NCBI RefSeq assembly: GCF_900111275.1
Contig: NZ_FOGR01000004.1
Span: 62,001-126,000, forward strand
Source of the DNA: Rhizobium sp. NFR03
Lineage (GTDB): Bacteria > Pseudomonadota > Alphaproteobacteria > Rhizobiales > Rhizobiaceae
Length of the DNA: 64,000 bases
Direction: 5' to 3'
A program made the translations under genes and the position numbers. The notes below the pieces were generated by a model that saw nothing but the letters and a program-made list of their open reading frames with translations, ran no database searches and had not been told where the DNA came from. Shown in pieces: positions 56,905-64,000 of the stretch (position 1 is the first letter of the stretch; the number at the start of each line of letters is the position of its first letter).

Positions 56905-59307
56905 ATGACAGCAGGACCGAGCGCTCGACCTGTGATCAAGACCTATACCGGCCCGGCTGGCGGATGGGGTTCGGCGAAGTCCGTAAGCGAAATCATCGTT
57001 CGCGAACGTGTGCCGGCCAGCGGCTCGGCGCTGATGCGCAAGCAGAACAAGCCGGACGGCTATATGTGCGTCAGTTGCGCCTGGGCGAAACCGGCCAAGC
57101 CTCACCCGCTGGAATTCTGCGAGAACGGAGCAAAGGCAACCGCCTGGGAGATCACGCGCCGCCGGACAGGACCGGACTTCTTCGCGAAGCATACATTGCG
57201 CGAACTGGAGGACTGGCGCGACCATGATCTTGAGGAGCAGGGCCGGCTGCTGGAGCCGATGCGATGGAACGCGGAGACGGACCGTTACGAGCCGGTAACG
57301 TGGGAGGCAGCCTTCGCGGAGATCGGGCGGGAGCTGCAGTCGCTGGCGCCCGATCAGGTCGATTTCTATACCTCCGGCCGCGCCTCCCTGGAAACATCCT
57401 ACATGTACCAGCTTTTCGCCCGGCTCTATGGCAACAACAACCTGCCGGACAGCTCCAACATGTGCCATGAAAGCACATCCGCCGGGCTTCCCGAAAGCAT
57501 CGGCGCAACGGTCGGGACAGCGGTCCTGTCGGACTTCCAGAACACCGACTGCATCTTCTACATCGCACAGAACGTCGGCACCTCATCGCCGCGTCTGCTG
57601 CACGACTTGCAGGATGCCGCCGACCGTGGCGTTCCCATCGTCACCTTCAACCTGCTGCGGGAGCGCGGTCTGGAGCGGTTCAAGAACCCGCAGGCGCCGA
57701 GCGAGATGCTCTCGCCGTCGGACACGCAGATTTCATCGGACTATTTCCAGGTCAGAAACGGCGGCGATACCGCCGCGCTCTTCGGCGTCTGCAAGGCGCT
57801 GATCGAGGCCGATGACCTGCTGAAAGCGTCCGGTGAAAGCCTTGTGGCCGGTAAGGATGGTCAGCCGGACGATCCCTCCGAGGCGGGAACGGTGGCCTTC
57901 GCCGCATCGATCGCCGCTGCGGACAAGAAGCATGTGCTCGATCACGATTTCATTGCCACCCACACCGCAGGCTTCGAGGAATTTGCGAATGCCGCCCGTC
58001 GACGCCGCTGGGAAGAGCTGGAGCGTATCTCCGGTCTGACGCGGGAGCAGATGGTGAAGGCCGCAAGCATCTACGCGTCGGCGGATGCCGTGCTGATCGC
58101 CTTCGGCATGGGGCTGACGCAGCATGTCATGGGCGTCGAAAACGTGCAGATGGTTGCCAACCTCGCGCTTCTGCGTGGCAACATCGGCAAGCCGGGCGCA
58201 AATATCTGTGCGGTTCGCGGACATTCCAACGTGCAGGGGCAGCGCACCGTCGGCATTACCGAGAAGCCCGGGCTGGTTCCGCTCGACAAGCTCGCCGAAC
58301 TCTATGCTTTCGAACCTCCACGCGAGATGGGCCGCAGCACGGTCGATACCTGCGAGGCGATTCTTTCCGGGAAGGCGCGCGCTTTCGTCGGCCTTGGCGG
58401 CAATTTCCTGCGCGCGATCCCCGAGACGCAAGCCGTCGAAAAGGCCTGGCGCAAGCTGCGCCTGACCGTGCAGATCGCTACAAAGCTCAACCGCAGCCAC
58501 GTCCTTCATGGCGAGGTCGCCTATCTCCTCCCCTGTCTCGGGAGGATCGAGATCGACAACCAGGCAAGCGGTCCGCAGGCGGTCTCCATCGAGAGCTCGG
58601 TCGCCCAGTTTCACGGCTCACGAGGCCACGCGAAACCAGCGGGGCCGAACCTCAGATCCGAACCCGCCATCATCGCCGGCATCGCCAAGGCAACGCTGCA
58701 ACGTGGAAACGTGCCATGGGATGCATGGGTCGCCGACTATGGAAAGGTGCGGGACGCGATCGAGGCGACCTATCCCGAGACCTTTCGCGACTTCAACGCG
58801 CGCCTCTTCCAGCCCGGTGGCATCACGCGGCCCGTGCCGGCGCGCGAGCGCAAATGGGTGACGCCGAACGGCAAGGCGAACTTCATCACGCCCGAGCGCC
58901 TGTTTCCGGATTTCGACCTGAAACCGGGCGTCGAAGCGGTGCTCAATCTCGCGACACTTCGCTCGAACGACCAGTTCAACACGACGATCTACGGCTACAC
59001 GGATCGTTTTCGCGGCGTCGATGGCACGCGCAAGGTCGTCTTCATGAACGTTGTCGACATCGCGCGCTTCGGCCTTGCCGGAGGGCGCAGCGTCGATCTG
59101 GTCACTGCTATCGCGGACGGTACGGAGCGGAAGGTCGAGGGGTTCAGGATCGTGCCCTACGCCATCCCGGAGGGATGTTGCGCCGCCTATTTTCCGGAAA
59201 CCAACCCGTTGTTCCCGCTGTCGCATCATGACGCGAAGGCGAAAACGCCGTCTTACAAGCTGCTGCCGGTCATCATCCGCGCGTCGAACGCGCAGCCGGT
59301 GGATTGA
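56905..59307 (+). CDS. FdhF/YdeP-family molybdopterin oxidoreductase
   Basis: Cytoplasmic molybdopterin enzyme of 800 aa. An N-terminal [4Fe-4S] site of the YdeP type is seen in PDGYMCVSCAWAKP and, further on, EFCENGAKATAWE. Molybdopterin-domain blocks follow: SNMCHESTSAGLPESIGATVGTAVL, FGMGLTQHVMGVENVQMVANLALLRGNIGKPGANICAVRGHSNVQGQRTVGI and the C-terminal QFNTTIYGYTDRFRGVDGTRKVVFMN. No twin-arginine signal, so cytoplasmic. The substrate of this family is not settled (formate is suggested by homology, acid resistance in E. coli). A cytochrome c/oxidase operon follows 10 bp later. Confidence 0.88.
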   Translation: MTAGPSARPVIKTYTGPAGGWGSAKSVSEIIVRERVPASGSALMRKQNKPDGYMCVSCAWAKPAKPHPLEFCENGAKATAWEITRRRTGPDFFAKHTLRELEDWRDHDLEEQGRLLEPMRWNAETDRYEPVTWEAAFAEIGRELQSLAPDQVDFYTSGRASLETSYMYQLFARLYGNNNLPDSSNMCHESTSAGLPESIGATVGTAVLSDFQNTDCIFYIAQNVGTSSPRLLHDLQDAADRGVPIVTFNLLRERGLERFKNPQAPSEMLSPSDTQISSDYFQVRNGGDTAALFGVCKALIEADDLLKASGESLVAGKDGQPDDPSEAGTVAFAASIAAADKKHVLDHDFIATHTAGFEEFANAARRRRWEELERISGLTREQMVKAASIYASADAVLIAFGMGLTQHVMGVENVQMVANLALLRGNIGKPGANICAVRGHSNVQGQRTVGITEKPGLVPLDKLAELYAFEPPREMGRSTVDTCEAILSGKARAFVGLGGNFLRAIPETQAVEKAWRKLRLTVQIATKLNRSHVLHGEVAYLLPCLGRIEIDNQASGPQAVSIESSVAQFHGSRGHAKPAGPNLRSEPAIIAGIAKATLQRGNVPWDAWVADYGKVRDAIEATYPETFRDFNARLFQPGGITRPVPARERKWVTPNGKANFITPERLFPDFDLKPGVEAVLNLATLRSNDQFNTTIYGYTDRFRGVDGTRKVVFMNVVDIARFGLAGGRSVDLVTAIADGTERKVEGFRIVPYAIPEGCCAAYFPETNPLFPLSHHDAKAKTPSYKLLPVIIRASNAQPVD

Positions 59308-59317
59308 GGGAGCGTCG

Positions 59318-59941
59318 GTGGGGTCATCAGGGGGGCGTCGTCGATCGGGATGGAGCGTCGCATCGGGCACGCTGTCGCTCTGCGGCGTCACGCTCTGCTG
59401 TCTGGCCTGCGCTACCGCTCTGGGCTGGATGCGCGCGCCGCGACAATTCCGGACCGACCCGCCGTTGCAGGCAGACCTCGGCAACCTCAGGCTCCTGCCG
59501 AACCGCATTGGCGGCACGCCGCCGGAGAGCTACTTCGCGCTTGGCAAACCCTACGAGAAGGTGGCTTACGATCTCTCGCAGGGAAAACGGCTCTATACAT
59601 GGTTCGGCTGCGCCACATGCCATGGCGATGGCCGCGGGAATATCGGCCCATCCTTCCTCGACGGCTGGTGGCTCTATGGTCCGGAAATGATCTCCGTCGC
59701 CGCTTCCATCCGCGACGGGCGTCCGCATGGCATGCCGGCCTATCGCGACCGGATGACCAACGACCAGATATGGCAACTGGCAGGCTATGTCAGAACCATC
59801 GGCGCTTATGGACCAAGCGTTTCAGCCACTGCGCGTAACGACGACCCCCAAACGCGACCGGCTGAAAACCGTGGTCCGGCCTCCATTTTGTTCGAGCAAG
59901 GGCCCGCGGGCATGAAGCCCGAACAAGGGCCTTCGCCATGA
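59318..59941 (+). CDS. Membrane-anchored cytochrome c
   Basis: A 207-aa monohaem c-type cytochrome. The haem motif CATCH is at residues 98-102, with Met139 (PHGMPAY) the likely distal ligand. One hydrophobic helix (about 15-37, TLSLCGVTLCCLACATALGW) acts as anchor or uncleaved signal. The start is GTG 59318, supported by GAGGGAG. It overlaps the next gene by 4 bp (ATGA). It should carry electrons to the subunit II cytochrome c domain of the oxidase encoded downstream. Confidence 0.88.
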   Translation: MGSSGGRRRSGWSVASGTLSLCGVTLCCLACATALGWMRAPRQFRTDPPLQADLGNLRLLPNRIGGTPPESYFALGKPYEKVAYDLSQGKRLYTWFGCATCHGDGRGNIGPSFLDGWWLYGPEMISVAASIRDGRPHGMPAYRDRMTNDQIWQLAGYVRTIGAYGPSVSATARNDDPQTRPAENRGPASILFEQGPAGMKPEQGPSP

Positions 59942-60921
59942 TCGCGCGCCGAGGCGTTCCCCTACCTGCTCTTCTTGCGCTGCCCCTCCTGCCCGGATGC
60001 ACCGGCATGCAATCCTCGCTCGATGTCGGCGGGCCCGCGGCCGGGGAGTTGCGGTTGCTGATCGTCTCTTTCACGGTCATCTGCGGCATCGTCTGGCTGC
60101 TCGTCGTCGCCACGCTCGGATGGGCGCTTCTACGACGCCGACCGGCCGGCACCGGCGCGCGGACGCAACGGCAACTGACATGGGCGGTCTCTCTCAGCGT
60201 GGCCGCCACCGCCATCATCGTTGCCGGGCTGACGACCCTCAGCTTCCTTGCCACGCGGTCGCTTGGAGGAGGCGATGGCGAGATCGAGGTGGTGGCCGTG
60301 GGGCAGCAATGGTGGTGGCAGTTTCTCTATCCGCGCGAGGGATTCCAGACGGCGAACGAGCTGCACATTCCGGTCGGGCGCACGGTTCGCATCCGGCTGG
60401 AAAGCGCCGATGTCATACATTCGTTCTGGGTGCCGAGCCTGTCGGGCAAGATGGACATGATCCCCGGGCGCACGACGGCGCTGACATTGAAGGCCGAGCG
60501 GCCGGGCGTCTATCGCGGACAATGCGCGGAGTTCTGCGGTCTACAGCACAGCCATATGGGCTTCACTGTCATTGCCGAGGACGACGTCTCCTACCGCAAA
60601 TGGCTGACGGGCCAGGCGCAACCGGCGCGCCCCGCCGCAACGGAAGAGATCAGGGCCGGACAAGCCGTGTTTCTCGCAAAACCCTGCGCTGCCTGCCACA
60701 CCATTCGCGGCACCACCGCCGTTGGCACCGCCGGGCCGGACCTGACCCACATCGGCAGCCGCCGGAGCATCGCGGCAGGTCTTCTGGAAACCACCCGGGG
60801 GACCCTTGCCGCATGGACGGCCGATCCGCAGACGCTCAAGCCCGGCACCACCATGCCCCTCGTCCCGTTGACAAGCATCGAGCTACGGCAGGTCGCAGTC
60901 TATCTGGAGAGCCTCAAGTGA
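59938..60921 (+). CDS. coxB: Cytochrome c oxidase subunit II with fused cytochrome c domain
   Basis: A 327-aa caa3-type subunit II. A lipobox LLPGC puts a lipidated Cys at residue 21; two membrane helices follow (about 40-65 and 85-105). The CuA site is complete: H161 (VIHSFWVP), C196, C200, H204 and M207 (CAEFCGLQHSHM). A C-terminal cytochrome c domain has CAACH at 250-254 and Met306 as probable distal ligand. The aromatic electron-entry patch QQWWWQF is present. The stop overlaps subunit I (GTGA). Confidence 0.94.
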   Translation: MIARRGVPLPALLALPLLPGCTGMQSSLDVGGPAAGELRLLIVSFTVICGIVWLLVVATLGWALLRRRPAGTGARTQRQLTWAVSLSVAATAIIVAGLTTLSFLATRSLGGGDGEIEVVAVGQQWWWQFLYPREGFQTANELHIPVGRTVRIRLESADVIHSFWVPSLSGKMDMIPGRTTALTLKAERPGVYRGQCAEFCGLQHSHMGFTVIAEDDVSYRKWLTGQAQPARPAATEEIRAGQAVFLAKPCAACHTIRGTTAVGTAGPDLTHIGSRRSIAAGLLETTRGTLAAWTADPQTLKPGTTMPLVPLTSIELRQVAVYLESLK

Positions 60922-62846
60922 CCGGGAACCGGAACGCCCGTACGCGAGAAGACGACCGGCCGTCGGACACCGATGTCTCGGACGCCGAGGGCGAGCGCCG
61001 GCTGCTTGCGACCTGGGCGACGCCCCGCACGCTGAAGGGCGTCCTCTCCACTGTCGATCACAAGATCATCGGCCGGCGCTACATCGCTACGGCCTTCGTT
61101 TTCCTCATCCTCGGAGGCCTGCTGGCGCTGGCCATGCGGCTGCAACTGGCGGCACCCGAAGCGCGGTTCATCGGTCCGGATCGCTACAACCAGATCTTCA
61201 CCATGCACGGGTCGACAATGATGTTCCTGTTTGCGGTGCCGGTCATGGAAGCCGTCGGGGTCTTCCTCGTGCCGCTGATGATCGGCACGCGCAATATCGC
61301 ATTTCCCAGGCTGAATGCCTTCTCCTACTGGATTTTCCTCAGCGGCGGCATCCTGCTCTGGGTGTCGTTCGCGCTCGATGTGGGGCCAGATGTCGGCTGG
61401 TTTGCCTATGTTCCCCTTGCCGGCCCGGAATTCTCACCCGGCAAGCGCGCCGACATCTGGGCTCAGATGATCACGTTTACGGAGCTTGCCGCTCTTGCTG
61501 TCGCCGTGGAGCTCGTCGCCACGATCCTCAAGCAGCGCGCGCCGGGCATGTCGCTGGATCGTATCCCCGTCTTCGTCTGGGCCATGCTGGTCACCTCCTT
61601 TCTGATCATCATGGCCATGCCGGCGATCATGATTGCCAGCAGCACGCTGATCCTCGACCGGCTGGTCGGCACGCAGTTCTACAATCCGGCTGAAGGTGGG
61701 GATGCGCTTTTGTGGCAGCACCTGTTCTGGTTCTTCGGCCATCCCGAGGTCTACATCATCTTCCTGCCCGCCGTCGGCATGGTCTCCACCATCATCCCGA
61801 CCTTTGCCGGGCGGCCTATCTTCGGTTACCTGCCGCTGGTCATGGCGCTGATCGCAACGGGCATCCTCTCCTTCGGGCTGTGGGTGCACCACATGTTCAC
61901 GACCGGCCTGCCGCGTCTGGGGGAGAGCTTTTTCACCGCCTCCAGCATGTCCATCGCCATCCCCGCCGGCGTCCAGATCTTCTGCTGGATCGCGACGCTC
62001 TGGGCCGGGCGTCCACAACTGAAGACGCCGCTTCTCTTCGTCTGCGGCTTCATTTTCACCTTCGTTCTCGGCGGCATGACGGGCGTCATGGTCGCATCCG
62101 TTCCCCTGGATACGCAGGTCCACGACACCTACTTCGTCGTCGCCCATTTCCATTATGTCCTGATCGGTGGCGCACTCTTCCCGTTGATCGCTGCCGTTTA
62201 TTACTGGCTGCCGAAGGTGAGCGGGCGGATGATGAGCGAGCGGCTCGGCCGCATCGTCTTTGCCCTCATCTTCCTCGGGTTTCACGGCACATTCTTTCCC
62301 ATGCATTTCCTCGGGCTCATGGGCATGCCGCGCCGGGTCTACACCTACCAGCCGGAGATGGGATGGGGCGGGCTGAACCTCTTCGTCAGCCTCAGCGCGC
62401 TGGTGCTCGCCGCGGGCTTCCTCCTGTTCTTCATCGATGCCATCCGCAGCGCGCGATCCGGGCCGCTGGCCGGGCCGAACCCTTGGAATGCGCCGACGCT
62501 CGAATGGGCGACGTCGTCGCCGCCACCGGCCTACAACTTCCGCCGTATCCCTGTCGTGACCTCGGCCAATCCCTTGTGGGACAATGGCGAGACGCTGCCG
62601 GTAGCCGGTGGCCTCAATATTGACCGTCGGGAGCTGCTGGTGTCGAGCGTGGTGGAAGCCCTGCCGGAGGCGCGGGAATCGTCCCCGACGGACTCGATCT
62701 GGCCTTTCTGGGCGGCAATGGCGACCTCGATCCTGCTGATCACCTCGATCTTCACGCCTTGGGCTGTCGTCTGGGGTTCCATTCCCGTGGCCATCACGCT
62801 GATCGGCTGGTTCTGGCCGAAAGGCGAACCGGAGGATGAGGCATGA
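60918..62846 (+). CDS. ctaD: Haem-copper oxidase subunit I with altered proton-channel residues
   Basis: A 642-aa A-type subunit I from GTG 60918. Haem a ligands H97 and H412, haem a3 ligand H410, CuB ligands H275, H324 and H325, the crosslinked Tyr279 and Glu277 (GHPEVY) are present. The D-channel entry aspartate is replaced: GTRNIAFPRLN has Asn126 where APDMAFPRMN has Asp. The K-channel lysine is replaced: IPAGVQIFCW has Gln353 where IPTGVKVFSW has Lys. The C-terminal extension (about 530-642) has two more helices, like caa3 enzymes with part of subunit III fused. Overlaps flank both ends. Confidence 0.94.
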   Translation: MTGNRNARTREDDRPSDTDVSDAEGERRLLATWATPRTLKGVLSTVDHKIIGRRYIATAFVFLILGGLLALAMRLQLAAPEARFIGPDRYNQIFTMHGSTMMFLFAVPVMEAVGVFLVPLMIGTRNIAFPRLNAFSYWIFLSGGILLWVSFALDVGPDVGWFAYVPLAGPEFSPGKRADIWAQMITFTELAALAVAVELVATILKQRAPGMSLDRIPVFVWAMLVTSFLIIMAMPAIMIASSTLILDRLVGTQFYNPAEGGDALLWQHLFWFFGHPEVYIIFLPAVGMVSTIIPTFAGRPIFGYLPLVMALIATGILSFGLWVHHMFTTGLPRLGESFFTASSMSIAIPAGVQIFCWIATLWAGRPQLKTPLLFVCGFIFTFVLGGMTGVMVASVPLDTQVHDTYFVVAHFHYVLIGGALFPLIAAVYYWLPKVSGRMMSERLGRIVFALIFLGFHGTFFPMHFLGLMGMPRRVYTYQPEMGWGGLNLFVSLSALVLAAGFLLFFIDAIRSARSGPLAGPNPWNAPTLEWATSSPPPAYNFRRIPVVTSANPLWDNGETLPVAGGLNIDRRELLVSSVVEALPEARESSPTDSIWPFWAAMATSILLITSIFTPWAVVWGSIPVAITLIGWFWPKGEPEDEA

Positions 62847-63445
62847 AGGAACGTATCGTCCACGACCTCTCGCACCTGCCGCTGCATGGGCTTGGAACCG
62901 CCAGCCTGACATGGTGGGGCACCTGCGCCTTCATGCTGATCGAAGGCACGGGATTTGCGCTCTCCGTCGCCGTCTATCTCTACCTGATGAGCCTGGCGCC
63001 CGCGTGGCCGATCGATGCACCGGCGCCTGACCTTCTGGCGGGCACGCTGCTCACGTGCCTCTTGCTCATCAGTCTCGTGCCAAACCTCCTTCTCCGGCGC
63101 TGGGCCGAACGCGAGGATCTCCACAAAGTGCGGATCGGGCTCGTCGTCATGACGGTGGCAGGAGTATTGCCGCTGATCGTAAGAATCTTCGAATTTCCGG
63201 CCCTGCACGTCTCCTGGGACGACAGCGCCTACGGCTCTATCACCTGGCTCATGCTGGGCCTCCACACGACCCACATCCTGACAGATGTCGTCGATACGGT
63301 CGTGCTCATGGCGCTCATGTTCTCCAGGCATGCCGACAAGCCGAGACGGTACGGAGATGTTTCGGACAACGTGATGTACTGGAACTTCGTCGTGGCAACC
63401 TGGGTTCCGATCTACATCTGCCTCTATTGGGTGCCGCGGCTATGA
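62843..63445 (+). CDS. Cytochrome c oxidase subunit III-like protein
   Basis: A 200-aa inner-membrane protein, five helices. It opens with polar MKERIVHDLSHLPLHGLGTASLTWWGT, then EGTGFALSVAVYLYLMSLAP, which matches the subunit III glutamate region, and ends TWVPIYICLYWVPRL. It is shorter than the 260-270 aa seven-helix form, consistent with the first two helices being at the end of subunit I. The start overlaps subunit I by 4 bp. Confidence 0.86.
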   Translation: MKERIVHDLSHLPLHGLGTASLTWWGTCAFMLIEGTGFALSVAVYLYLMSLAPAWPIDAPAPDLLAGTLLTCLLLISLVPNLLLRRWAEREDLHKVRIGLVVMTVAGVLPLIVRIFEFPALHVSWDDSAYGSITWLMLGLHTTHILTDVVDTVVLMALMFSRHADKPRRYGDVSDNVMYWNFVVATWVPIYICLYWVPRL

Positions 63446-63780: not shown

Positions 63781-64000
63781 TGCTCCTCATCATTCTCTTC
63801 GGCGCGTTGCCGGCCTTCGCACATGGCGGCATCGAGCACAACGGGATTGGCTGGACGACCGATCTCTATATCGTCATTCCCATCGCCCTCTCTGCCCTTG
63901 CTTTCATCGCCGGCAGCGCCCGCCTGCTGCGCCGCACCCGCAGCCGGCATGGCCAGCGGCGGCTCTCATGGCGCATCATGGCATACGCTGCGGGATGGCT
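63768..64000 (+). CDS. CtaG-like cytochrome c oxidase assembly protein (cut by window edge)
   Basis: The first 77 residues are visible. A signal-like helix MPVLMLLIILFGALPAFAHGG is followed by GWTTDLYIVIPIALSALAF and a basic loop RRTRSRHGQRR leading to AYAAGWL. This pattern fits the N-terminus of the multi-helix caa3-type CtaG family, which helps copper delivery to CuB. It starts 13 bp inside the preceding gene. The rest lies beyond the window. Confidence 0.75.
   Translation, partial: MPVLMLLIILFGALPAFAHGGIEHNGIGWTTDLYIVIPIALSALAFIAGSARLLRRTRSRHGQRRLSWRIMAYAAGW

Follow-up and report, generated by a model that had tools for sequence, protein, structure and literature searches.

How an oxidase is supplied with protons when signature residues of both its proton channels have been replaced is the question raised by an operon in the window, the stretch of 64,000 nucleotides of Rhizobium sp. 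NFR03 DNA analysed here. K362 is considered essential for delivery through the K-channel, and N121, N139 and N207 are counted as D-channel residues (PMC10341450); a D132N substitution blocks uptake through the D-channel, and the slow turnover that persists has been interpreted as exit-side supply (PMC4321873). These published rules would predict a poor enzyme in the window, and still its sequence has been conserved. An alignment with R. sphaeroides 1m56 as reference, its numbering (Rs) verified at 17 sites, together with a reading of the codons, places Asn126 of subunit I (CoxI) at D132 and Gln353 at K362, as an earlier note on this DNA had claimed (Table 1). The same alignment bears out its statement that the metal ligands (H97, H275, H324, H325, H410 and H412), Glu277 (Rs Glu286) and Tyr279 (Rs Tyr288) are intact, and the propionate arginines R472 and R473 are also kept. 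An alignment error at the Rs 132 site was ruled out, since P136 and R137 do not vary among 92 of the 94 Gln-362 rows, the other two having no letters at these positions. The earlier note overlooked the carboxylates at Rs 117, 198 and 207, the loss of Asn121, which is a valine in the window, and the missing E101 of subunit II (E101-II). It had also treated Lys362 as a channel entry, whereas this residue sits inside the K-channel and the entry residue is E101-II, which is absent too.

Table 1. Genes and channel-site residues of the oxidase operon, with positions in the window
Feature	Position	Strand	Remark
FdhF/YdeP-family molybdopterin oxidoreductase	56905..59307	+	upstream of the cox genes
Small c-type cytochrome	59405..59941	+	one CxxCH; start codon not fixed
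CoxII with fused cytochrome c	59938..60921	+	CxxCH at residue 250; CuA motif present; E101-II column without Glu
CoxI (subunit I), 642 aa	60918..62846	+	GTG start overlaps the coxII stop; two predicted helices in C-terminal extension
Asp47 (GAT), Rs Asn25 site	61056..61058	+	adjoins Rs Thr24, a listed D-channel residue
Glu111 (GAA), Rs Gly117 site, helix II	61248..61250	+	alignment and codon reading
Asn126 (AAT), Rs Asp132 site, D-channel	61293..61295	+	alignment and codon reading
Glu189 (GAG), Rs Gly198 site	61482..61484	+	Glu in 91/92 Gln-362 rows
Glu198 (GAG), Rs Asn207 site, listed D-channel residue	61509..61511	+	alignment and codon reading
Gln353 (CAG), Rs Lys362 site, K-channel	61974..61976	+	alignment and codon reading
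CoxIII, short 200-aa form	62843..63445	+	profile match
Start of Caa3_CtaG assembly-factor domain	63921..64000	+	gene continues beyond the window end

The CoxI protein matched TIGR02891 (CtaD_CoxA) with 723 bits against a cut-off of 671, and Pfam COX1 as well. Two extra helices are predicted behind the COX1 domain (595-609 and 616-632), and a Pfam search of the whole protein gave no COX4 family match. CoxIII covers positions 154-255 of the 258 of the Pfam COX3 model, and an ORF downstream of the cox operon carries a CxxCH motif with 0 Pfam matches. An AlphaFold model of CoxI (pLDDT 91.3, from a 53-row alignment) superposes on R. sphaeroides CoxI entries with an rmsd of 1.4-1.6 A over 495-511 residues, the side-chain directions in the window protein being taken from published residue lists. 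When CoxI was compared with seven homologues, dN ranged from 0.15 to 0.25, dS from 0.9 to 1.7, which is near saturation, and dN/dS from 0.09 to 0.23; the window CoxI is under purifying selection. These ratios, the intact reading frame and operon, the presence of all ligands and the recurrence of the same residue in separate records largely contradict the reading of a degenerate or mis-sequenced gene, which we regard as very improbable even though close copies are sometimes broken, one being split into two overlapping pieces (in genome G015) and another (L027) looking frameshifted.

By sequence, tree and fold the enzyme nests in family A, and it fails the channel-residue definition of the A1 type. 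It shares with the aa3 oxidases of R. sphaeroides and P. denitrificans (A1) the CoxI fold, the haem a/a3-CuB ligands, the cross-link tyrosine Tyr288, Glu286 and Asn139, and differs from them by D132N, K362Q, N121V, N207E, G117E, G198E and the absence of E101-II. In terms of the D-channel definition list, which includes Asp132, Asn121, Asn139, Asn207 and Glu286 (PMC3084760), two residues are kept, Glu286 and Asn139, and three are replaced; in the K-channel, Ser299 and Tyr288 are kept, Lys362 is a glutamine and Thr359 an alanine. Membership of the B type is not borne out, as the best B-type chains matched at an E value of about 1e-14, compared with 3e-145 for A-type chains, and Glu277 is present. 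The B-type ba3 oxidases have a single proton input, a K-type path. They are also devoid of the D-channel residues and have an isoleucine in place of the helix VI glutamate according to Table 2 of PMC12901375, whereas the window enzyme keeps that glutamate and has lost the K residues.

In order to see how these residues are distributed, a CoxI alignment of 122 rows was used, made up of the best 80 of 594 confirmed relatives, other genomes, one plasmid and three reference enzymes; all row fractions given here describe this sample. Gln-362 is present in 94 rows, the window included, in accordance with the earlier suggestion that it may be a subfamily trait, and 92 of these have letters at the other sites. 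With relatives limited to the best 80 of 594, residue 132 of these 92 rows is D in 58, E in 10, N in 18 and S in 6, so that the Asn, previously considered the less expected change, is a clade trait. A glutamate at Rs 198 is found in 91 of the 92 Gln-362 rows and in 0 of the 26 Lys-362 rows of the same best-80-of-594 sample; the sole Gln-362 row devoid of it, L078, keeps G117, N121, G198 and N207. All 26 Lys-362 rows have D at 132, G at 198 and N at 207, and 25 of them N at 121. Setting aside L078 and two fragments, Asn121 occurs in 0 of 91 Gln rows, Glu117 in 84 and Glu207 in 80. The tally of 91 Gln and 26 Lys rows leaves out L027 and L087 (the fragments), L028, L088 and L078, and L015, identical to L117, is counted outside the subclade that is devoid of Asp132. 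L028 and L088 (Methylobacter, and genome G033 of the window genome's family) differ from the window in their double change, which consists of Trp at the Glu286 site and Ala at 362.

The Asp132-less subclade itself, counted with L015 set aside, has 24 rows (17 N, 6 S and, in L118, 1 E). The glutamate at Rs 198 is present in every one of its rows, and where there is a letter at the site Glu286 is found in 24/24 and both propionate arginines in 23/23. Four further plasmid copies, read separately, have Asn at the 132 site in three cases and His in that of Mesorhizobium japonicum pMLb; this last copy (L122, 5359-7230) combines the His with a Gln at Rs 117. Three rows, L017, L022 and L036 (Caballeronia, Massilia), carry a Glu at Rs 204, a position at which G204D reportedly blocks the D-channel of R. 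sphaeroides.

The loss extends to subunit II. In the same sample (relatives being the best 80 of 594), and with the reservation that the CoxII stretch ahead of TM2 aligns poorly, E101-II is a Glu in 20/20 Lys-362 systems in which CoxII was found (23 loci), in 0/92 Gln-362 systems, two more being gapped there, and in neither of two Ala-362 systems. Within the sample the contrast is complete: K362 and E101-II, the charged pair of the K-path, are lost together. A Glu situated a few residues before TM2 of CoxII in many close relatives was set aside, as the window has Gln there. The CuA cysteine motif is absent from CoxII of seven Gln-362 relatives (L037, L038, L045, L047, L058, L063 and L091), which for that reason may oxidise quinol instead of cytochrome c. 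With D132, K362 and E101-II all absent from the window enzyme, protons could be drawn from the periplasm, the route of cNOR and the one suggested for D132N mutants, in which case the enzyme would be non-electrogenic; the turnover of D132N has been read as fed by protons leaking via the exit path (PMC4321873). That turnover is nonetheless described as low, and the constant Rs 198 glutamate would lack a clear purpose in such an enzyme, an arrangement that we consider unlikely.

The order in which the changes arose was approached with a tree of 111 rows from which the trait columns had been removed, 11 of the 122 rows being left out (the fragments L027 and L087, near copies and redundant canonical enzymes), and with a second tree of 46 chosen rows. 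In the 111-row tree, where the outgroup does not form one side of a branch and long branches near the base gave rise to a warning, residue 362 changes twice and residue 198 once. The loss of K362 embraces 92 rows (SH-aLRT 100), the gain of Glu117, Glu198 and Glu207 with the loss of Asn121 embraces 89 (SH-aLRT 98), and the loss of Asp132 embraces 25 (SH-aLRT 98), next to which stands a sister group of four rows with Asp retained; in the 46-row tree the Asp132-less subclade has 24 rows (99/97). Read on the outgroup-rooted tree, this suggests that K362 was lost before the three glutamates were gained and Asn121 lost, and that Asp132 would have been the last to go. Forcing the 23 rows with no acid at 132 into a clade that excludes L118 gave an AU p of 0.010 (46-row tree), so that either L118 regained an acid, its Glu, or there was more than one loss. 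As far as sequences can tell, these patterns show the changes at Asp132 and Lys362 to be an old, conserved redesign and not a chance mutation.

A one-for-one swap of Asp132 for Glu207 is unsupported. Glu207 and Glu117 are each found in 66/66 Gln-362 rows with an acid at 132, and in 14/24 and 18/24, respectively, of the rows with Asn or Ser there (L078 and L118 left out, the Asn/Ser figures summed from two tallies, relatives being the best 80 of 594). An independent-pair test at site 207 leans against compensation, with 0.5 pairs changing the same way and 0 the opposite way among only 2 pairs. Likewise, an Asp at Rs 25 was rejected as a compensating residue: it occurs in 19/24 subclade rows, with Asn in the four sister rows, which is suggestive; it is also present in 11/26 Lys-362 enzymes, and of 2 independent pairs in the 46-row tree 0.7 went the opposite way and 1.3 showed no difference. 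Since Glu117 and Glu207 are rarer where Asp132 is gone, the acids relax, the opposite of what simple replacement predicts. In R. sphaeroides, N139D uncouples and slightly raises the activity, and N207D uncouples too (PMC6934443); the counts of Glu117 and Glu207 and the behaviour of N207D, for which uncoupling is stated whereas activity is stated only for N139D, both weigh against simple replacement. The acids at 117 and 207 would then relax or move once Asp132 is lost, which fits an acid wandering round a fixed relay and also the decay of a pump.

The operon resembles COX operon type a-II (PMC4013037), named 'A1 subtype a' and filed as A1 in PMC6431628, in its long CoxI with a C-terminal extension, its short CoxIII and the fusion of CoxII to cytochrome c. 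Features reported for type a-II are a C-terminal fusion of CoxI to a COX4-like part, a five-helix CoxIII and a PQQ dehydrogenase that often adjoins the operon and is not obligatory (PMC4013037). Such a dehydrogenase adjoins several relatives and not the window, in whose operon the FdhF/YdeP enzyme takes its place. The word 'proton' does not occur in the main text of PMC4013037, nor do 'D-channel' and 'K-channel' in that of PMC6431628. The CoxI of Rhizobium etli CFN42, on plasmid p42b, is 77% identical to that of the window and has the same set of Asn, Gln and Glu; as the only match on p42b, with four contiguous genes, its cluster is taken to be RHE_PB00063-66, described in the text of PMC4274787 just as a 'putative' cytochrome c oxidase for which mutants were not made. 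In Sinorhizobium meliloti, the relative L041 retains Asp132; its CoxI, 862 residues long and with no separate CoxIII match beside it, is probably a fusion. The alternative oxidase coxMNOP, a second aa3-type oxidase of rhizobia, is probably a distant relative.

Four more COX1 genes are found in the genome, one near the mitochondrial-type aa3, two bo3-like and one with Glu and Gln at the two sites; the first three keep both Asp and Lys. Six genomes of the same genus gave no CoxI match above 47% identity, and among 60 related genomes the single close match is the gene of G015, in two overlapping pieces (78% and 73%), the next being at 52%. Because close matches are this scarce in both sets, the operon is regarded as accessory. 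Across the class, 5 of 385 genomes, including its own, have a match at E values up to 1e-195. Of 520 plasmid records with a match, 88 show an identity of 60-80%; most of the 60 matches listed are rhizobial. The close CoxI copies L087 (that of G015) and L027 look frameshifted or mis-assembled and, judged from such copies, the operon seems dispensable.

Among 26 subclade loci, seven (L006, L007, L018, L024, L027, L040 and L121) have the FdhF/YdeP gene upstream in the orientation of the cox genes and three (L012, L015 and L036) have it elsewhere, the flank of several of the 26 being too short to judge; two further plasmids (L122 and L125) carry it there too, whereas L124 has it on the opposite strand. 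In R. etli (L121, 13295-15887) the best match to this protein extends over just 460 residues and corresponds to no listed gene, which may reflect either a broken gene or gaps in the gene table. A PQQ dehydrogenase is located upstream in L008, L014, L016, L020 and, from the sister group that keeps Asp, L023 (5/10 ORFs scanned), and also in L123. A swappable dehydrogenase, a cytochrome c and a CoxII fused to cytochrome c together suggest a short chain for the oxidation of alcohol or C1 compounds, in which direct electron transfer from the FdhF/YdeP enzyme is doubtful because no export signal is visible by eye.

This context bears on a strong rival, close behind our preferred explanation, namely an uncoupled oxidase whose substrate protons still come from the cytoplasmic side, by way of what polar residues the D-channel retains, and which pumps little or not at all, serving dehydrogenases as an electron sink in which speed counts over yield. 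The neighbouring PQQ dehydrogenases or FdhF/YdeP enzymes of its relatives, the four other COX1 genes, three of them with Asp and Lys, the relaxation of Glu117 and Glu207 after the loss of Asp132, and the uncoupling of R. sphaeroides by both N139D and N207D (PMC6934443) all agree with such a role. Nevertheless, a constant Rs 198 glutamate, Glu286 in 24/24 and the propionate arginines in 23/23 seem to go beyond what an electron sink alone requires, and we hold the uncoupled oxidase to be a serious possibility of somewhat less than even weight.

The explanation we prefer, tentatively and at a little short of an even chance, is a caa3-like cytochrome c oxidase that has lost the K-path, receives its protons via a rebuilt, glutamate-rich D-like path and pumps in an altered manner. 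In this lineage the K-channel charges K362 and E101-II would have disappeared, glutamates would have come in at Rs 117, 198 and 207, and the mouth Asp132 would have been dropped afterwards within the subclade of the window, dispensable once the glutamates acquired earlier had taken over the input. Starting from the observed residues, their co-occurrence and the purifying selection, we infer that the glutamates are proton carriers: Glu198 (Rs 207), Glu189 and Glu111 of the window, perhaps with Asp47 at the mouth, could relay protons to Glu277, which would serve both the chemistry and any pumping, with one rebuilt D-like path instead of two and pumping retained at a lower or altered ratio. Against this explanation, the glutamate at Rs 198 is the sole constant one, and it may point its side chain away from the channel. 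In R. sphaeroides the double mutant D132N/N139D is said to recouple pumping, so that an acid moved inwards can reportedly restore coupling. A more specific form of the proposal, put forward with greater reserve, is that of a lineage with no K-channel in either subunit, new carboxylates at Rs 207, 198 and 117 and one path for all protons, in which the subclade of the window might be the natural counterpart of mutants with the mouth acid moved inwards, pumping with another stoichiometry or none.

In the searchable literature no homologue with measured pumping or H+/e- data was found. Open-licence papers, a body from which most subscription papers are absent, yielded no description of this case; a closer one may exist, and novelty in print is not established. 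The nearest earlier statements found are the K-channel losses that PMC8239418, assuming one rooting hypothesis, maps onto a phylogeny of archaeal family A oxidases, and a survey of 1216 oxidases in which, according to PMC3084760, only 4 were devoid of the channel residues of their own family, all of them B-like. The D and K channels underpin much of the work on proton pumping, and a conserved natural family devoid of D132, K362 and E101-II, with a Glu at 207, where an Asp uncouples the R. sphaeroides enzyme (PMC6934443), provides a ready-made test of the requirements for pumping.
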